Of a stretch of 64,000 nt of DNA, positions 5,117-55,111 are shown one piece after another. Position numbers and translations under genes: made by a program. The stretch is from Magnetospira sp. QH-2. Lineage in GTDB: Bacteria > Pseudomonadota > Alphaproteobacteria > Rhodospirillales > Magnetospiraceae. The stretch lies in NCBI RefSeq assembly GCF_000968135.1, contig NZ_FO538765.1, positions 2,309,819 through 2,373,818 of the forward strand, written 5' to 3'. The notes under the pieces were generated by a model. That model did not search any database. It was not told the DNA's origin and saw only the letters and a list, made by a program, of their open reading frames with translations. Position 1 is the first letter of the stretch; every line of letters begins with the position of its first letter.

Positions 5117-5192
<76 letters not shown>

Positions 5193-46900: not shown

Positions 46901-47062
46901 GCCATCCTTTCCATGGCCCATAGCATGAACCTCAACGTCATCGCCGAAGGGGTAGAAACGGAAGACCAACTCAGCTTCCTGCGCACCAATGACTGCGAAG
47001 AGGTGCAGGGTTATTTCATCAGCAAACCGATACCGGCCGAAGATGTTGAAAAAATGCTTTAG
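43940..47062 (+). CDS. Membrane PAS-PAS-GGDEF-EAL protein
   Basis: A 1040-residue c-di-GMP enzyme. TM1 is residues about 9-32, a periplasmic sensor domain follows to about 240, then TM2 (VNLIFVGSLLVAAIGLITFW), HAMP (265-315) and two PAS domains (about 350-470, 480-600). GGDEF has RLGGDEF near 695 with I-site RKSD five residues before. EAL has EALVRWNHP near 824, DDFGTGYSSLSYL and KIDKSFI. Both catalytic motifs look intact, so it may be bifunctional. The start codon appears to be TTG at 43940 with AAGG upstream. Confidence 0.93.
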   Translation: MIRKKIPIGWLLGLISIGGMLVIGGVLGLVTLKSFGGAFEQHAARLTLSQTETSIAGIHEFVRTRTDMLRDIAHSPLLLQGVMQQETGLPNAVDHLESSRLAGQRVRLMLFDFEAMPIHDTAAAPRQPPKEILTALLESDSPTLARFSWFPGGKSALWLGASISWRGSTEGVLIAEIPMDRMGFLSARMFSTGHGKLEILQDSKTLFSDSWQAMGKTIGRGLPQLGVQIRYTSDLSQIRREQQELAVNLIFVGSLLVAAIGLITFWVGRRTLVQPLLKIEQMTARIINGESVESASLKSHVVELQSLGRRFDEMARETQLARQHLQSLVEARTQALNKELQDKKTATMELRKVSALQSAILESATYAIVTMDPLGTIMSFNPTAERMFGYRAPDMIGKRSVLVLHRHEDLVKKSETLSRERGQTIASPFDALTFVADRGRVDETECHLVRRGGGTFPARLTITRLGDRDDLVEGYMAVSSDITQRKETEEKLQLAHEIIQKAGEAVVITNPSGQIIDINPAYEKVTGYHRKDILGRNPSMAKSGRHDAAFYADMWTTLNATGRWEGEIWDRRASGEIFPKWLGINAIRDDDGHVSNYVGIFTDISAQKSTERKLERLAFFDPLTKLPNRALFRDRLTQGLEMARRDTHPLALMFIDLDRFKNINDNLGHDVGDEVLIAVAQRIKGCLRKSDTVARLGGDEFTVILRDPGDSVDLGTLADDIIGVLTKPFHIREQDLFIGASIGIALFPEDGADDETLMKNADVAMYQAKQAGRGTYRFFTNEMNDNTGRRIALEADLRTAIDQDQLALHYQPKIALENNRIIGFEALVRWNHPTKGMISPIEFIPLAEETGLIVPLGEWVLKTACTRIKNWRTKLNEDLTIAVNLSARQFEDPLLTEKIEGILTELHLPSSALELEITESIAMADVERTIAVIDGLKSRGLRISIDDFGTGYSSLSYLKRFPLHSLKIDKSFIHGLAIASDDEAIVTAILSMAHSMNLNVIAEGVETEDQLSFLRTNDCEEVQGYFISKPIPAEDVEKML

Positions 47063-47474
47063 CCTTATGGCGCTGTTGGGTCTGACAGCAAGCGGCGTGC
47101 AGGCAGATGACGCCATGATTTTGGAAGTGCGCGTGGAAAAAATGGAAAATACCGAAGGCCGGGTCGTCGTGGCGCTATTCACCGACGCCAAAAGTTTTTT
47201 GGAAAAGGCATTGATCGACCAGGCCGTTGCCATTGACGGGGACCAGGCCGTCGCCCGTTTCGAAGGTCTGGCTCCAGGAACCTATGCCGTCTCGGCCTAT
47301 CACGATATCAACGACAATGATCGCCTGGACCGCAATTTCCTTGGCCTGCCGTTAGAGCCCTATGCGTTCTCCAATCAAGCGCCGGTTAATCTGGCCCCGC
47401 CCACCTGGGAGGCAGCACGGATTGTCCTGGATGGACCGTTTAAACGGATCGTCATCCGTTTGGGCGAACACTGA
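47043..47474 (+). CDS. DUF2141 family exported protein
   Basis: A 143-residue protein with signal peptide (MLKKCFSLMALLGLTASGVQ). The mature part follows DUF2141: GRVVVALFTDAKSFLEKA, LAPGTYAVSAYHDINDNDRL, GLPLEPYAFSNQAPVNL, PTWEAARIVL. The HDxNxNxxLD stretch is its hallmark. It overlaps the end of the GGDEF/EAL gene by 20 bp, so the two are translationally linked. Function of the family is unknown. Confidence 0.9.
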   Translation: MLKKCFSLMALLGLTASGVQADDAMILEVRVEKMENTEGRVVVALFTDAKSFLEKALIDQAVAIDGDQAVARFEGLAPGTYAVSAYHDINDNDRLDRNFLGLPLEPYAFSNQAPVNLAPPTWEAARIVLDGPFKRIVIRLGEH

Positions 47475-47753
47475 TTGAGCGGAGTCTCGACTGAACCGCC
47501 CATTCAAAGTGCACTTACATCGTGATCGCTGCCTCCTCAACACACAAATCAGGCCCACCGAACGGCTAATGCCTAATTTTTAGCCACATACATCTTTTGG
47601 GGCACAACAAAGCTCATTGAACAGGCATTTTCCAACACCGGAAATAATTACTCTTTATTTTGCAACATACTACCGTATGGCATGCCATTTGCTATCTATC
47701 GTCAAACATGGAACGAGAGCCAATAATTACGGCAACAATAGGCAGAGCCCACC

Positions 47754-48356
47754 GTGACACTCACATTGAAAACCCCCGTTGGTTTGAACGTCCTTCTCTG
47801 CGCCAAGGGGGAGGAGCGTGGGGCTCAGCTCGAAAAAGTGTTGCTTGATGCCGGATACGGATTGGCCGTGCGGTTGGACGATCCCGCCAAGGTCATCGAA
47901 ATGATCCAGACGACCGAGCCGGATTTGTTGGTCTTCGCCCATCCAAAGCCGGCCGAACCTGAATTTAAAGTCATCAGCGACATTCGCGCGACCCTGCCCC
48001 GCCCCATTCTCATGTTCAGCGAAGATGGGACAACGGCAACCATGCGGGCCGCAGTGGCTGCCGGAGTCAATTCTTATGTCTTGGTGGGCGTCAATGCCAA
48101 TCGGGTGCATTCGGCCATTGATCTGGCCTTTGCCCATTATTCGGAAGCCCAGGAATTGAGGGGCGAACTGGCCAAGGCGACCACGGCGCTGGCCGAACGC
48201 AAAATGATTGAACGAGCCAAGGGCATCATCATGAAGACCAAGGCCCTGGACGAAGAAGAAGCTTATGCCTTCATGCGCAGCACGGCCATGAACCGCGACA
48301 TGCGGCTGGCCGCTCTCGCCAAAACGGTGATCGAGGCCCATGAACTGGTGAACTAA
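47754..48356 (+). CDS. NasT-like ANTAR response regulator
   Basis: A 200-residue protein. Residues 12-130 are a receiver-like domain; the usual phospho-acceptor position is not Asp (PDLLVFAHPKP), so it is likely not phosphorylated. Residues about 140-197 are the ANTAR RNA-binding domain (AERKMIERAKGIIMKTKALD, AYAFMRSTAMNRDMRLAALA). NasT-type proteins antiterminate nitrogen genes by binding tandem hairpins in leaders. It is followed by such hairpins and the cyanate/nitrate transporter genes. The start appears to be GTG at 47754. Confidence 0.9.
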   Translation: MTLTLKTPVGLNVLLCAKGEERGAQLEKVLLDAGYGLAVRLDDPAKVIEMIQTTEPDLLVFAHPKPAEPEFKVISDIRATLPRPILMFSEDGTTATMRAAVAAGVNSYVLVGVNANRVHSAIDLAFAHYSEAQELRGELAKATTALAERKMIERAKGIIMKTKALDEEEAYAFMRSTAMNRDMRLAALAKTVIEAHELVN

Positions 48357-48366
48357 TTCCGCGCGA

Positions 48367-48452
48367 GATCCCCAAGGACGGGGATCGAACGTCCATTAAA
48401 AACCGACGGGCTAATGGCGGTCTCGAGGTTCCCAGCAGGCCAACGTCGGCCT
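48367..48452 (+). promoter_or_regulatory. Candidate tandem ANTAR-target hairpins
   Basis: Two hairpins have six-base loops with A at position 1 and G at position 4, the known ANTAR-binding signature. The first is GATCCCC-AAGGAC-GGGGATC (48367-48386). The second is AGGCC-AACGTC-GGCCT (48437-48452). They lie between nasT and the binding-protein gene. The linker of 50 nt is longer than usual and no clear T-run terminator follows, which lowers confidence. Confidence 0.62.
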
Positions 48453-48521
48453 CGCACCGTGGTGATGGATTCCACTCGTAGAGGGATTCCGCGCCGCATG
48501 TGAAGACAGACGGAGTACATT

Positions 48522-50000
48522 ATGGGAGCTTTTGCCAATCCCTTTGATCCGGACAAGGTCCTTTGGGCCGGTTGTCCCTGTGGGCAGCATAAATCGCTGC
48601 TCGAACACCAGATGGCCATGAGCGGCCAATCGGAATCCCGGTTTGCCTGCGAGACCATTGAACCGGAAGCCGAAACCGCGATCAACACGCCGATGATGGC
48701 CGATAGCGCCATCGACGACGATGAACCCGATATGCTCGACCAGGAAGCGGTCATGGAGCGGGCGGTGGAATCCGCCGTGCTCAACGGCATCTTCGGCAAC
48801 GACATGCAACGCCGCACTTTCTTGCAGGCGGTGGGCGCCGGAACCGCCGCAGCGGCTATTTCCCAGTTCTTCCCGTTGCAGGAAGCCAAGGCGGCGGTGC
48901 TCGACAATCTTAAGGGCGGCCCGCTGGAAAAGAAGCATCTCAACGTCGGCTTCGTGCCCATCACCTGTGCCACGCCGATCATCATGGCGCACCCCATGGG
49001 CTTCTATAAGAAGTACGGCCTGGACGTGGACGTCATCAAGACCGCCGGTTGGGCGGTGGCCCGCGATAAATCCCTTTCCGGGGAATACGACGCGGCCCAC
49101 ATGCTGACCCCGATGCCCCTGTCCATCACCATGGGTGCCGGTTCCACGGCTCATCCTTGGACCATGCCGGCCATCGAAAACATCAACGGACAGGCCATCA
49201 CCTTGGCCAACAAGCACAAGGACAAGCGCGATCCGAAGATGTGGAAGGGCTTCAAGTTCGCCGTGCCCTTTGAATACTCCATGCACAACTTCCTGCTGCG
49301 CTACTACGTGGCGGAACATGGCCTGGACCCGGACAAGGACATCCAGATCCGCGTGCTGCCGCCGCCAGAGATGGTCGCCAACCTGCGGGCTGGAAACGTC
49401 GACGGCTACCTGTCGCCCGATCCGTTCAACCAGCGGGCGGTCTACGATGGCGTTGGCTTCCTGCATGCCCTGACCAAGGAAATCTGGTCCGGCCATCCCT
49501 GCTGTGCATTCGCCTCGAGCGAAAAGTTCATCAAGGAAGCGCCGAACACCTTCCTGGCGTTGTTCAAGTCGATTCTCGAAGCGACGGCCTATTCGTCCAA
49601 CAAGGCCAACCGTGCCGAGATCGCCAAGGCCATTTCGCCCAAGAACTATCTGAATCAGCCGGAAACGGTGGTGAAGCAGGTTCTGACCGGTCGTTTCGCC
49701 GACGGTCTGGGCAAGGTCCGCAACGATCCCGACCGCATCGATTTCGATCCGTTCCCCTGGCATTCCATGGGTATCTGGATCATGACGCAGATGAAGCGGT
49801 GGGGCTACGTCAAGGGCGACGTGGACTACAAGGGCGTGGCCGAGCAGGTCTATCTGGCCACCGATGCTCAGAAGCTGATGACCTCCATGGGTCAGACGCC
49901 GCCTGACAAGACCTACGACAAGCACACCATCATGGGTAAGGAATTCGATCCGTCGAAGCCCGAGGCCTATGTGGATAGCTTCGCCATCAAGCGCGGATAA
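48522..50000 (+). CDS. NrtA/CynA-type ABC transporter binding protein
   Basis: A 492-residue CmpA/NrtA-family protein binding nitrate, cyanate or a similar anion. It has an unusual 95-residue N-terminal part containing GCPCGQHKSLLEH, then an internal Tat signal (QRRTFLQAVGAGTAAAA; Arg97-Arg98), then the binding domain (LNVGFVPITCATPIIMAHPM, VDGYLSPDPFNQRAVYDGVG, FPWHSMGIWIMTQMKRWG). It starts a five-gene set with permease, ATPase and cyanase, so cyanate is the most likely substrate. Confidence 0.92.
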   Translation: MGAFANPFDPDKVLWAGCPCGQHKSLLEHQMAMSGQSESRFACETIEPEAETAINTPMMADSAIDDDEPDMLDQEAVMERAVESAVLNGIFGNDMQRRTFLQAVGAGTAAAAISQFFPLQEAKAAVLDNLKGGPLEKKHLNVGFVPITCATPIIMAHPMGFYKKYGLDVDVIKTAGWAVARDKSLSGEYDAAHMLTPMPLSITMGAGSTAHPWTMPAIENINGQAITLANKHKDKRDPKMWKGFKFAVPFEYSMHNFLLRYYVAEHGLDPDKDIQIRVLPPPEMVANLRAGNVDGYLSPDPFNQRAVYDGVGFLHALTKEIWSGHPCCAFASSEKFIKEAPNTFLALFKSILEATAYSSNKANRAEIAKAISPKNYLNQPETVVKQVLTGRFADGLGKVRNDPDRIDFDPFPWHSMGIWIMTQMKRWGYVKGDVDYKGVAEQVYLATDAQKLMTSMGQTPPDKTYDKHTIMGKEFDPSKPEAYVDSFAIKRG

Positions 50001-50035: not shown

Positions 50036-50884
50036 ATGACTATTTCACCACGACTTCGGGCCTTTGTCCTCTCGATCGCCCTGTTTTCCGTCTTTGCCAT
50101 CGTCTGGCATGTGGCGGTGCTGGCCCCCGAGCAGACCATCCCGGAGGGAATGGACCCCGAGTATGCCGAAATGATGGGTTTCACCGGCGGCACGAAGGGG
50201 GGCTCGTCCATACCGGGCCCCCTGGAGGTCGGCGGCGCCATCTGGGAGCATGTTTCCGATCCCTTCTACGACAACGGCCCCAACGACAAAGGCATCGGCA
50301 TTCAGTTGGCCTATTCTCTGGCCCGGGTGCTGGTCGGCTTCTTCTTTGCCGCCATCCTGGCCATTCCCCTGGGCTTTTTGATCGGCATGTCGCCGATGTT
50401 CCATCGGGCGCTGGATCCGTTCATCCAGATCATGAAGCCCATCTCGCCCTTGGCCTGGATGCCGCTGGCCCTTTACACCATCCAAGATTCCGGCATCTCC
50501 TCCATTTTTGTTATTTTTATCTGTTCGGTCTGGCCCATGCTGGTCAATACCGCCTTCGGCGTGGCCTCTGTGCGCAAGGAGTGGCTGAATGTGGCTCGCA
50601 CCTTGGAGGTCGGACGCCTGCGCACGGCGCTGTTCGTCATCCTGCCCGCTGCCGCGCCGACCATCATGACCGGCATGCGCATCTCCATCGGCATTGCCTG
50701 GCTGGTCATCGTCGCCGCCGAGATGTTGGTGGGCGGTACGGGCATCGGCTACTTCGTCTGGAACGAGTGGAACAACCTGTCCATCACCAGCGTCATCAGC
50801 GCCATCTTCTTCATCGGCGTGTTCGGCATGGTGCTGGATCTGATCCTCGCCACCATCGCCAAGTTCATCACCTACACCGAATAA
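50036..50884 (+). CDS. ABC transporter permease (nitrate/cyanate type)
   Basis: A 282-residue inner-membrane protein with about six helices. The start is at 50036 after AAAGGAG. The cytoplasmic EAA-like loop reads RTLEVGRLRTALFVILPAAA. Family traits include FFAAILAIPLGFLIGMSPMF and GIAWLVIVAAEMLVGGTGIG. It belongs to the NrtB/SsuC/TauC group and is the membrane part of the transporter. Confidence 0.93.
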   Translation: MTISPRLRAFVLSIALFSVFAIVWHVAVLAPEQTIPEGMDPEYAEMMGFTGGTKGGSSIPGPLEVGGAIWEHVSDPFYDNGPNDKGIGIQLAYSLARVLVGFFFAAILAIPLGFLIGMSPMFHRALDPFIQIMKPISPLAWMPLALYTIQDSGISSIFVIFICSVWPMLVNTAFGVASVRKEWLNVARTLEVGRLRTALFVILPAAAPTIMTGMRISIGIAWLVIVAAEMLVGGTGIGYFVWNEWNNLSITSVISAIFFIGVFGMVLDLILATIAKFITYTE

Positions 50885-50905: not shown

Positions 50906-51799
50906 ATGACCCTGCCCGCCCCGAAAATCAGTATCGAAGGCCTGGAACGCCGCTTTCCCGCCCCCGACGGCAAGGGCGCCGACGTCTCGGTGTTCAAGGA
51001 TCTCTATTTCCATGTCCAGGAAGGCGAGTTCGTCTGTCTGATCGGCCATTCCGGCTGCGGCAAGACCACCTTACTCAACATCCTCGCCGGGCTCGACGAA
51101 GCCAGCGCCGGGGGCGTGGTGGTCAACGGCCAGGAAATCAGCGGCACTTCGCTGGATCGAGCCGTCGTATTCCAAAGCCATGCACTCATGCCTTGGATGA
51201 CGGCCCTGGGCAATATCGCCTTCGCGGTAAAGTCCCGTTGGCCCAAGTGGAACAAGGAAAAAATCCGCCTCCACTGCCAGAAGTACCTGGACATGGTGCA
51301 TTTGAGCGGCGCCGAGGACAAGAAACCGGCCCAACTGTCCGGCGGCATGAAACAGCGCGTGGGCATCGCCCGGGCCTTTGCCATCCAGCCGCAAATCCTG
51401 CTGATGGACGAACCTTTCAGCGCCCTGGACGCCCTGACCCGAGGCTCTTTGCAACAAGAATTGCTGAGCATCTGCCAGGAAACCAAACAGACGGTGTTCA
51501 TGATCACCCATGACATCGACGAAGCCATTTTGCTCGCCGACCGCATCGTGCTGATGACCAACGGTCCGGAAGCCCAGGTCTGCGAAATCGTTGAGAACAC
51601 CCTGCCGCGCAATCGCACCAAGCATGACATGCACAAGCAGGCCAACTACTACCCCATGCGCAACCATCTGATCGAGTTCCTGGTCAACCGTTCCAAGCAG
51701 TTCAAGGACGAACTGGCGGCCAGCGACTACGACCCCAAGCACCCGCCCATCGCCCGGCCCACGCGAGAGCCGGAACCGCCGATCCGCGGGGCGGCCTAA
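50906..51799 (+). CDS. ABC transporter ATP-binding protein (NrtD/CynD type)
   Basis: A 297-residue ATPase energising the transporter. Walker A is [10 protein letters not shown] near residue 51, the Q-loop is [11 protein letters not shown], the signature is [16 protein letters not shown], Walker B is [15 protein letters not shown] and the switch is [11 protein letters not shown]-terminal extension of about 60 residues includes [16 protein letters not shown]. It lies 21 bp after the permease. Confidence 0.95.
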
Positions 51800-51840: not shown

Positions 51841-52284
51841 ATGAATCGCTTGGATGTGACGGAGAAGATTATTGCCACCAAATTGGCCAAAGACCTCAAA
51901 TGGGCCGATGTCGCCAAGGAAATTGGCCAGTCCAAGGAATGGGCCACCACCGGCCTGCTGGGCCAGATGCAGATGAACGAGGAAGAGGCGGCCACGGCGG
52001 CCAAGATCTTCGACCTGACCGACGAGGAAGCCAAATGGCTGACCACCTGCCCCTATCGCGGTGGGTTGGGCCAGTCGGTGCCCACCGACGCCCTGGTGTA
52101 CCGTTTCTACGAAATCATTCAGGTTTATGGTCCGACCATCAAGGCGCTGATCGAGGAAGAATTCGGCGACGGCATCATGTCGGCCATCGATTTCTCCATG
52201 GATATTTCCCGCGAGGAAGATCCGAAAGGCGATCGAGTCATTGTGATGCTGAACGGCAAATTCCTGCCCTACAAGCGCTACTAA
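51841..52284 (+). CDS. cynS: Cyanate hydratase (cyanase)
   Basis: A 147-residue enzyme turning cyanate and bicarbonate into ammonia and carbon dioxide. The N-terminal helical domain is typical; the active site residues Arg88 and Glu91 (VYRFYEII) and Ser114 (GIMSAIDFSM) correspond to E. coli Arg96, Glu99 and Ser122. It follows an NrtABD/CynABD-type transporter by 41 bp, the classic cynABDS order, which supports cyanate uptake as the role of the operon. Confidence 0.97.
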   Translation: MNRLDVTEKIIATKLAKDLKWADVAKEIGQSKEWATTGLLGQMQMNEEEAATAAKIFDLTDEEAKWLTTCPYRGGLGQSVPTDALVYRFYEIIQVYGPTIKALIEEEFGDGIMSAIDFSMDISREEDPKGDRVIVMLNGKFLPYKRY

Positions 52285-52371: not shown

Positions 52372-53331
52372 ATGTCGAAAGTCCCCGTGACCCTGCTCAC
52401 CGGCTACCTGGGTGCCGGTAAAACCACGCTTCTCAACCGGATCCTCACCGAAAACCACGGCAAGAAATACGCTGTCATCGTCAACGAGTTCGGCGAGGAA
52501 GGCATCGACAACGAACTGGTAATCGGTGCCGACGAGGAAGTATTCGAGATGAATAACGGGTGCATCTGTTGCACCGTGCGCGGGGATCTGATTCGCATCA
52601 TTGGCAATCTTTTGAAACGACCAGACCAATTTGATGGCATGCTCATCGAAACCACCGGCCTGGCCGACCCGGCGCCCGTGGTGCAGACCTTCTTCGTCGA
52701 CGAAGATATCAAGGACGAACTCGCCCTTGATTCAGTGGTGACCCTGGTGGACGCCGCCCATTTCCTCGACCGGGTGGATGATTCCCACGAAGCCGAGGAA
52801 CAGGTGGCTTTCGCCGATCTGATCTTGCTCAACAAGGTGGACCTGGTGGATGCCGCCGGGCTGGCGGCTGTGCACAAACGGGTCCGCGAACTGAACCGCT
52901 TCGCAAAAATCATCGAGACGGAAAAGTCCGCCGTCCCGCTGGACATGGTCATGGATCAGGGCGCCTTCGACCTGCAACGGGCCTTGGAAGTGGACCCGGG
53001 ATTCCTGGAAGAGGAAGACCATGATCACGACGACAGCATTTCCAGCGTCTCCCTGACCGCCCGGGCTCCCGTGGTGGCCGAGAAATTCTCCGCATGGATC
53101 CGCAACCTGATCATGACCCGGGGCACCGATATTTTCCGCTCCAAGGGGATCTTATCCCTGGAAGGTCAAGAAAACCGCTATGTATTCCAAGGCGTTCACA
53201 TGGTCATGGACAGCGACTGGAGTGCCCCCTGGGGCGACGACGAACGCAACAGCCGCCTGGTGCTGATCGGGCGCGATCTGGACGGATCGCTTCTGCAGAA
53301 GGAGTTCGAGGCATGTACTCAGGCTGTGTAA
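52372..53331 (+). CDS. CobW/COG0523 family GTPase
   Basis: A 319-residue metal-handling GTPase. Walker A is GYLGAGKTTLL (Gly11 on). The metal-binding CxCC is Cys64-Ile-Cys66-Cys67 (GCICCTVRGDL). The nucleotide site has LLNKVDLVD. A short acidic/His stretch EEEDHDHDDS near residue 215 precedes the C-terminal CobW domain. The next genes encode a WD40 protein and a cobalt transporter, so cobalt delivery is likely, though zinc cannot be excluded. ATG at 52372 follows AAAGGAG. Confidence 0.93.
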   Translation: MSKVPVTLLTGYLGAGKTTLLNRILTENHGKKYAVIVNEFGEEGIDNELVIGADEEVFEMNNGCICCTVRGDLIRIIGNLLKRPDQFDGMLIETTGLADPAPVVQTFFVDEDIKDELALDSVVTLVDAAHFLDRVDDSHEAEEQVAFADLILLNKVDLVDAAGLAAVHKRVRELNRFAKIIETEKSAVPLDMVMDQGAFDLQRALEVDPGFLEEEDHDHDDSISSVSLTARAPVVAEKFSAWIRNLIMTRGTDIFRSKGILSLEGQENRYVFQGVHMVMDSDWSAPWGDDERNSRLVLIGRDLDGSLLQKEFEACTQAV

Positions 53332-54419
53332 AACCAGGCTGCGAGGATCCCGGCTGCGGCGAAGGCGGCATTGATGCCGGGGCCATGGTGGTCTCGCCGG
53401 ATGTCACGTCCGAGGAATTCGACCTCGGCGCCTATGTAAATGGGGTCTGCCATGGTCCGCGATCCAACAAGGTGGCGGTTGGTCTTGGAGATGGCCGGGT
53501 ATTGGCCGCCCCGATCTCTCGCATGGACGCGTTGAAAGAGATCAGTCGCCACGAAGGGGTGGTTTCAGCCCTGGCTCCTTTTGGCGAGGGCTTCATTTCG
53601 GGCGGTGACGATGGGCGCGTGCTGTTCAGCCGACCTGACGGTGGTGTCGAGGAACTGCATCACTTCGAGGATCAATGGGTCGAACACATGGCGGTTCACG
53701 AAGCAACCGGCACCATCGCCGTCACCGTGGGTCGTGATATCCATCTTCTCGATCGAGACGGCAACGCGGTTGGCGTTTGCGGGCCTCATCAAAGCACCCT
53801 TTCCGGCTTGGCGCTATCGGCAGATGGAACCATGGTCGCGGCCTCCCACTACGATGGGGCCACCCTTTGGACCGCTGGGGCCGACAAGCCCTCCAACAAG
53901 CTCTATTGGAAAGGCTCCCATACCGGTGTCACGCTGAGCCCCAACAATCGGTATCTGGTCACCGCGACCCAGGAAAAGGAACTCCACTGCTGGAATCTCG
54001 AGACCGGCAAGGACATGAAAATGAGCGGTTATCCGGCGAAGATCCGATCATTGGATTGGACACATGACGGGCGTTTCCTTGCTGCCGCCGGGGCCGATGT
54101 GCTGACCAGTTGGTCCTTTGACGGATCGGGGCCATCCGGCAGGCCGCCACTGGAACTGGGCTATGTCTTCAACGCCGTCGTCTCGTCGGTCGCCGTCCAC
54201 CCGCATCTACCCCTTGTTATCGGAGGCTACGACAGCGGCACGGTTTTGATCGGCGATATCGAGCGAGGAGATGCTCTGATCGCCCGGCCAACCGGGCAAG
54301 GGTCGATTACCGCCACCTGTTGGGGCGGTGATACCCATACCGCCATTTGCGGCACCGCGGATGGCAAATTGGCCTGTATGACGATCAGTGGCGAAATGCT
54401 ACAGCGTCCTGTATCTTGA
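53313..54419 (+). CDS. WD40-repeat protein linked to CobW
   Basis: A 368-residue soluble protein. It starts MYSGCVKPGCEDPGCGEGGI, a cysteine-rich head that may bind metal, then about seven WD40-like blades (VVSALAPFGEGFISGGDDGR, HTGVTLSPNNRYLVTATQ, IRSLDWTHDGRFLAAAGAD). The ATG at 53313 follows AAGGAG and overlaps the CobW gene end by 19 bp. The tight linkage suggests a scaffold or metal-handling partner of CobW or of the CbiMNQO transporter; exact role unknown. Confidence 0.87.
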   Translation: MYSGCVKPGCEDPGCGEGGIDAGAMVVSPDVTSEEFDLGAYVNGVCHGPRSNKVAVGLGDGRVLAAPISRMDALKEISRHEGVVSALAPFGEGFISGGDDGRVLFSRPDGGVEELHHFEDQWVEHMAVHEATGTIAVTVGRDIHLLDRDGNAVGVCGPHQSTLSGLALSADGTMVAASHYDGATLWTAGADKPSNKLYWKGSHTGVTLSPNNRYLVTATQEKELHCWNLETGKDMKMSGYPAKIRSLDWTHDGRFLAAAGADVLTSWSFDGSGPSGRPPLELGYVFNAVVSSVAVHPHLPLVIGGYDSGTVLIGDIERGDALIARPTGQGSITATCWGGDTHTAICGTADGKLACMTISGEMLQRPVS

Positions 54420-54442: not shown

Positions 54443-55111
54443 ATGCATATTGTTGAAGGCTACCTTCCCATCGAACACGCGATCGGCTGGAGCCTTGCCG
54501 CCGCGCCGTTCGTCGCCTACAGCGTTCGAAAGACCAGCAAGCTGTTGGCCGAGAAGCCTCAATTGAAGCTTTTATTTGCCGCTTCTGGTGCCTTTGCCTT
54601 TGTCTTGTCGGCATTGAAGCTGCCGTCGGTCACGGGCAGCACCTCCCATCCCACCGGTATCGGTATGGGGACCGTCTTGTTCGGACCGGCGGTGATGCCG
54701 TTGATCGGTAGTATTGTATTGGTGTTTCAAGCCCTGTTGCTGGCTCATGGAGGCCTTACGACATTGGGCGCCAATATCTTTTCGCTTGCCGTGGTCGGAC
54801 CTTGGCTTGCCTGGATGGTCTATCGGGGTCTGATGGGGATGAATGCCAACCTATCGGTTGCCGTGTTCATGGCGGCCATCGTGGCCAATCTGGGCACCTA
54901 CATGACCACGGCCACGCAGTTGGCCTTGGCCTTTCCCGACCCAATCAGCGGCATCGGCGGCTCAATGATCAAATTCACCAGCGTCTTTGCTCTGACTCAG
55001 GTGCCCTTGGCGATCAGCGAGGCCCTCCTGACCGTTGTGGTCATCAATCTCCTGCGCACCAATGCCATGCAGGAGTTGGTGCTATTGAAGTTTGCCGGGA
55101 GGCAAGGATGA
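54443..55111 (+). CDS. cbiM: Cobalt ECF transporter substrate protein CbiM
   Basis: A 222-residue membrane protein with the CbiM N-terminus MHIVEGYLP, whose first residues and His2 form the metal site. Other traits are [20 protein letters not shown] and [18 protein letters not shown]. It is the metal-binding S-component of the ECF transporter for Co2+. It overlaps cbiN by ATGA. Confidence 0.95.

Follow-up and report, generated by a model that had tools for sequence, protein, structure and literature searches.

The window analyzed here, a 64,000-nt stretch of the Magnetospira sp. QH-2 genome (NZ_FO538765.1), encodes an ANTAR regulator followed by an ABC transporter of the NrtABCD/CynABD type and the cyanase CynS. 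The stop codon of the ANTAR gene and the start codon of the substrate-binding protein gene are separated by a 165-nt spacer, referred to below as the leader. The relevant features are listed in the order of their position.

47678..47693, + strand, putative sigma54 (-24/-12) promoter, TGGCATGCCATTTGCT, 60 nt ahead of the start codon of the ANTAR gene
47754..48356, + strand, ANTAR regulator gene (PF03861, 60.6 bits)
48367..48386, + strand, ANTAR-type hairpin 1, gatccccAAGGACggggatc, loop AAGGAC, 7 Watson-Crick pairs
48408..48423, + strand, ANTAR-type hairpin 2, gggctAATGGCggtct, loop AATGGC, 5 pairs, 3 of them G-U
48437..48452, + strand, ANTAR-type hairpin 3, aggccAACGTCggcct, loop AACGTC, 5 Watson-Crick pairs
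48459..48497, + strand, strong downstream hairpin lacking a U-tract (-21.5 kcal/mol, z -3.3, 0/200 shuffles as stable)
48522..50000, + strand, NrtA/CynA-type substrate-binding protein gene (PF13379; PDB relatives NrtA, CmpA and NrtC)
50036..50884, + strand, NrtB/CynB-type ABC permease gene (TIGR01183 over cut-off)
50906..51799, + strand, NrtCD/CynD-type ABC ATPase gene (TIGR01184 over cut-off)
51841..52284, + strand, cynS, cyanase (TIGR00673 and NF002773 over cut-offs)
52375..53331, + strand, CobW-type GTPase gene, a frequent neighbour (PF02492, PF07683)

The ANTAR gene is the sole ANTAR match in the genome. Its product is predicted to consist of a receiver-like domain, a coiled coil and the ANTAR helices (AlphaFold2 model, mean pLDDT 91), its sequence matches EutV, Rv1626 and NasR, and AmiR (1qo0) is among its profile matches. 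The receiver-like domain is devoid of the phospho-acceptor aspartate, and the respective Asp of EutV aligns with Ala. Nine of the 11 RNA-contact residues named for EutV in the available part of the structural report (PMC8934654) and mapped onto the window protein by our own reading of the alignment are identical (Arg142, Lys143, Lys149, Glu160, Tyr164, Arg168, Met172, Asn173 and Arg177); the other two are replaced, Lys147 by Arg and Arg175 by Asp.

Hairpin 1 begins 10 nt past the ANTAR stop codon. The original prediction described two hairpins with six-base loops carrying A1 and G4 (AAGGAC and AACGTC); both were found where predicted, 50 nt apart, and they exceed chance expectation, with at least two A1/G4 hexaloop hairpins of at least 5 Watson-Crick pairs occurring only once when the 165-nt leader was dinucleotide-shuffled 3000 times. 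The long linker, considered unusual in that prediction, was measured correctly, but it accommodates a third hexaloop hairpin (48408-48423) that had been overlooked, so the 50 nt resolve into 21 nt, hairpin 2 and 13 nt. A1 and G4 are present in all three loops, and three hairpins at a looser cut-off were not obtained in any of 3000 dinucleotide shuffles of the window leader. Taken alone, hairpin 2 is weak and falls below the stricter cut-off of the shuffle test (at least 5 Watson-Crick pairs); its loop and closing bases agree with the consensus of the nine aligned leaders described below. The free folding probabilities of hairpins 2 and 3 are as low as 0.00 and 0.27, respectively, so that protein or co-transcriptional folding would be needed for their formation. 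gtggtGATGGAttccac, possibly a decayed fourth hairpin, was left uncounted, with a T-T mismatch located at its loop. The window leader has the sequence and structural features that define an ANTAR target RNA.

Homologous loci were taken as the best 80 of 569 obtained in a scan with the binding protein. An ANTAR gene is located upstream in nine of these 80 (L002, L004, L005, L006, L007, L008, L010, L011 and L065), in L004 at a distance of 2.3 kb, whereas 70 lack it; L003 is truncated by a contig end, which puts its ANTAR gene out of view, and this locus was kept apart from both groups. When hairpins with the loop RAnG were counted within 170 nt before the start codon at the tested cut-off, at least two were present in 7 of the 9 loci with a visible upstream ANTAR gene versus none of the 70 loci without one. 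L005 and L065 have one hairpin each and L003 has three, and among the ANTAR-less loci 63 have no hairpin and 7 have one. Additional ANTAR-linked leaders, L130-L137 and L147, were also considered, of which L136, L147 and L130 were treated as identical to L006, L008 and L005, respectively, and counted once. Regulator matches at E <=1e-15 occur in 82 of 297 genomes of the same order. Several of these loci encode more than one ANTAR protein: L130-L135 contain a second ANTAR gene upstream of the operon-adjacent one, up to ~4 kb away, and L130, L131, L134 and L135 a third one, in the opposite orientation, past the operon. The first ANTAR protein of L005 has Asp at the position where the window protein has Ala. 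A single origin of the cyn-linked ANTAR proteins was considered and rejected, as the tree requires three label changes and comes with long-branch warnings.

The nine leaders with three clear hairpins, including that of the window and excluding L005 and L065 (no clear three-hairpin set), could be aligned with the loops in register, and RNAalifold predicts the three hairpins from them with no structure supplied. Paired cells comprise 97.5% of the alignment helices versus 83.1% in shuffles, none of the 500 shuffles reaching the former value, and 7 of the 14 pairs have changes on both sides, helix 2 also having such double-sided changes. The other eight aligned leaders have a first linker of 22-30 nt and a second of 8-15 nt, and the two of them with four hairpins have a third linker of 4-6 nt. 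Conservation of A1 and G4 in orthologous leaders, on which the original prediction depended, holds in part: G4 is invariant, but position 1 is A or G, and it is A2 that is invariant instead. According to the available part of the EutV structure report (PMC8934654), EutV makes base-specific contacts to G4 but not to A1, which fits this pattern.

The ANTAR-target signature, for which a covariance model had been suggested as a check, was recovered independently of the window sequence. A leave-one-out model built from the eight related leaders gave the window leader a score of 44.4 bits (E=3.5e-7), with a runner-up match of 11.2 bits (E=0.81), and the match spans hairpin 2 too. In a search of the same genome with the model of all nine leaders, the window among its seeds, in which 150 of 2028 candidates were scored, the window leader obtained 65.2 bits and the second-best match 21.2 bits (E=1.05); with a single strong match and a single ANTAR protein, the regulator and the leader are the only clear pair found in this genome. 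Of the 385 alphaproteobacterial genomes sampled, only that of the window gave a match to the nine-leader model under strict filters, and among the 80 loci and the window the nine seeds were followed by L005 (18.6 bits, E=0.59), the remainder being at chance level. The further ANTAR-linked leaders scored 35.5 (L132), 28.8 (L133), 28.3 (L137), 22.6 (L135), 18.6 (L130), 17.6 (L131) and 16.6 bits (L134), and the top score at nitrate-type loci was 20.2 bits (E=0.12); the three-hairpin model is therefore a poor description of the further leaders. Rfam at gathering cut-offs identified in the window a tRNA alone (5117-5189), leaving the leader without a family, and at E up to 10 it produced two irrelevant weak matches in the region 47000-49500, both outside the leader.

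The regulator, the leader and the operon are likely to share a single transcript, given that hairpin 1 follows the ANTAR stop codon at a distance of 10 nt and that the one sigma70-type site found on the + strand of positions 47400-48700 is located upstream of the ANTAR gene. The putative sigma54 promoter TGGCATGCCATTTGCT matches TGGCAYGNNNNTTGCW exactly, and no other site in the window does so. If one mismatch is tolerated, the window contains 3 matches versus 1.47 expected, so single-mismatch sites alone mean little. Counting the window, 8 of 14 loci have a site with at most one mismatch no further than 500 nt before the ANTAR gene, but five of the eight (L130 and L132-L135) have the two-ANTAR arrangement, and their sites are therefore not independent. 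The site of L006 has two mismatches, and none passing was found up to 500 nt upstream in L007, L010, L011, L131 and L137. Divergent ORFs of the sigma54-activator type (GAFTGA) occur together with the ANTAR leader in L002 (1042-3000) and L004 (1666-3630), so two control layers may coexist there; an upstream ORF of this type was found in 34 of 68 ANTAR-less loci versus 2 of 8 ANTAR-set loci with enough upstream sequence.

The step through which the leader would act was approached by comparing the regions downstream of the hairpins. Out of 17 distinct ANTAR-linked leaders, 10 have an intrinsic terminator that overlaps the last hexaloop hairpin (L003, L008, L065, L130-L135 and L137). In these 10, the 5' arm of the terminator overlaps that hairpin on its 3' side, and the T run begins 20-30 nt before the start codon; hence, in many relatives, the last hexaloop hairpin and the terminator have the shared-arm anatomy of antitermination. 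The last hairpin has A1 and G4 in L003, L008, L065 and L137, and, as read by eye, G4 but C at loop position 1 in L130-L135, which are mutual kin. Its free-folding probability is 0.00 in both L003 and L008. By the same test, no terminator was detected in the window, L002, L004, L006, L007, L010 and L011; a candidate in L136 was disregarded; it is a branched fold lying 63 nt ahead of the start. The lack of a clear terminator in the window had been anticipated: a search for an intrinsic terminator with a U-tract in the leader found none, and the longest T run past hairpin 3 is 2 nt. Yet a strong, 39-nt hairpin without U-tract (48459-48497) sits where several relatives carry the terminator.

Taken together, leave-one-out detection, co-occurrence, covariation and gene order bear out the part of the original prediction that ties an ANTAR target to the adjacent ANTAR gene, and ANTAR control of the leader is well supported. 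Antitermination, the other part, is unsupported in the window copy because the intrinsic terminator of 10 of the 17 leaders is absent there. We consider it probable that the leader serves as an ANTAR target RNA with three hairpins and that the bound ANTAR protein lets operon expression proceed on sensing of cyanate or a related anion. Similar arrangements in related bacteria suggest that the regulator probably switches the cyanate genes on through the leader RNA. Under this scheme, the sigma54 promoter upstream of the ANTAR gene would give rise to one transcript that covers the ANTAR gene and runs across the leader into the cyanate transporter/cynS operon; the ANTAR protein would grip the hexaloops of the leader, as the anatomy and the conserved contact residues suggest; and, once cyanate or a related anion is sensed, expression would continue into the operon. 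The strong hairpin without U-tract leaves two alternatives for the output in the window, namely, a terminator or pause that is degenerate or assisted by a factor, or translation control.

Action on translation, with the bound hairpins freeing or blocking the ribosome site of the binding-protein gene, overlaps with the preferred explanation and is a possibility that we regard as real, if doubtful. It is consistent with the missing U-tract in the window and with the terminator-less leaders of L006, L007, L010 and L011, in which the last hairpin stops 28-30 nt before the start codon, and translational ANTAR targets have been reported in actinobacteria (PMC8164766, available part). In the unbound fold of the window, leader bases pair with the start-codon region, the openness of which is 0.36 without and 0.57 with forced hairpins. 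The openness of the ribosome site itself, however, barely shifts (0.58 to 0.64), forcing the hairpins produced no consistent change in its sequestration over the nine leaders, and many relatives have terminators instead.

The missing terminator can also be read as decay, an ancestral antitermination leader having lost it so that the hairpins are relics and sigma54/NtrC alone sets expression. The presence of the terminator in 10 of 17 distinct leaders and its absence from the window, as well as the three G-U pairs of hairpin 2, would agree with such a history, but three similarly spaced hairpins are retained in the window and in the terminator-less leaders, the RNA-contact residues of the ANTAR protein are kept, and the leader is the only strong target of the sole ANTAR protein found in the genome. 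We therefore give little credence to decay.

The question of the sensor bears on whether the locus is an ordinary NasS-NasT nitrate system that merely precedes cynS. The canonical partner of NasT is NasS, a signal-less NrtA homologue (PMC3795266, available part). Among the four PF13379 proteins of the genome, namely, the operon binding protein, one Tat-type and two Sec-like proteins, all with export-type N-termini as judged by eye, no signal-less NasS-type protein was found, and none is encoded beside the ANTAR gene; so far as these searches go, this is not a standard NasS-NasT system. The gene described in the original prediction as NasT-like does encode a receiver-like and ANTAR regulator, but the NasS partner implied by that name was not found in the genome. 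By comparison, 8 of 11 nitrate-type NasT loci have a short-N-terminus homologue lacking an evident signal (by eye), the other 3 being ambiguous. The regulator fold is nevertheless the same, similar hairpins (for example, cctcAATGGCgagg and ggaacAAAGGCgttcc) are present at nitrate-type NasT loci from the same order of bacteria, the ABC transporter models carry nitrate names, and cynS, although present in 9 of 10 ANTAR-set loci (absent from L002) and, among the further loci, in L130-L136 but not in L137, also accompanies 63 of the 70 ANTAR-less homologues and so is not special to the ANTAR set. Weighing the export-type N-termini and the recurrence of cynS against these points, we find an ordinary nitrate system quite improbable. 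Cyanate is the likely ligand, albeit not the only possible one. A more specific scheme, a NasS-less cyanate-responsive switch in which a cytoplasmic Tat-folded precursor of the binding protein would hold the regulator inactive, part of the transporter thus being the sensor, and the three hexaloops would act without a terminator, is put forward as a speculation that is unlikely in this full form. As for chance hairpins in a GC-rich spacer, the 61% G+C of the hairpin stretch and the weakness of hairpin 2 carry practically no weight against the absence of three hairpins from 3000 shuffles, the double-sided changes in relatives and the independent leave-one-out match, which contradicts this reading.

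The Tat motif of the binding protein is internal, ~94 residues in, with TAT_signal under the Pfam cut-off and TIGR01409 over its own. In the window (48522-48900), ~90 residues with a Cys-x-Cys motif precede the twin-arginine motif, and an N-terminus combining the two motifs was detected, using a permissive pattern, in 79 of 80 binding-protein homologues (L002-L081).

In the AmiC-AmiR system, the ANTAR regulator has a receiver-like domain that does not serve in phosphorylation, and it works with a binding-protein-type sensor. The window regulator resembles AmiR in being an ANTAR protein with a receiver-like domain of the non-phosphorylated type, but no sensor was identified for it. EutV of Enterococcus faecalis, whose RNA binding is raised by phosphorylation-like conditions (PMC3369931 and PMC8934654, available parts), differs from the window regulator, in which Ala replaces the phospho-acceptor Asp. 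As far as the available descriptions of the eut leaders go, tandem A1/G4 hexaloops and the kept contact residues are common to both systems, and the last hairpin overlaps a terminator in many relatives of the window leader. The window leader departs from the eut leaders in having three hairpins, 21 nt before the second one and no U-tract terminator; the eut linkers are 5-12 nt long, and a longer linker lowered induction (PMC3369931, available part).

The Paracoccus denitrificans NasS-NasT system, with leader hairpins 137 and 91 bp before the structural gene nasA (PMC3795266 and PMC5424462, available parts), is similar to the window in the upstream ANTAR gene, the leader hairpins, general nitrogen control of the regulator gene and the assimilation operon, and dissimilar in that the window operon includes cyanase, the leader has three hexaloop hairpins and a signal-less NasS was not found. 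In Pseudomonas pseudoalcaligenes, cynABDS has a sigma54 promoter, is repressed by ammonium and requires the sigma54-dependent activator CynF (PMC6627978, available part). The CynABD-type transporter, CynS and a sigma54 promoter, putative in the window, are shared, but CynF is needed in that system, and our proposal for the window is that the ANTAR protein acts on the leader RNA. The known regulators of cyanate operons, CynR and CynF, are non-ANTAR proteins as described in the available part of PMC6627978, and a survey of sigma54 names cyanase and ANTAR genes as separate targets (PMC12316311, available part). Among the literature matches listed, leaving out PMC6316151, none described a cyanate operon as being under ANTAR control or contained ANTAR together with cyanase, and among those listed for three or multiple hairpins with ANTAR nothing relevant appeared. 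If the proposed mechanism is correct, ANTAR control at the RNA level would reach a cyanate operon, beyond nitrate, ethanolamine and amides, and the failure to find NasS raises the question of what senses the ligand. The 17 related leaders, some with and others without terminators, allow a direct comparison of whether a terminator is needed and whether hairpin pairs must be closely spaced.

A CobW homologue is present, within the fetched flanks, in 7 of 10 ANTAR-set loci versus 3 of 70 others. The ANTAR-linked operons are accompanied by the CobW GTPase and a gene for a cobalt/nickel-type transporter, which is CbiM, HupE/UreJ or CbtA depending on the locus (window, 52375-53331 and 54443-55111; L132, 5941-6609; L137, 10362-11036; L010, 7770-8426; L006, 8123-8863). 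In the window, the same cluster includes a WD40-repeat ORF (53094-54416) that overlaps the end of cobW.
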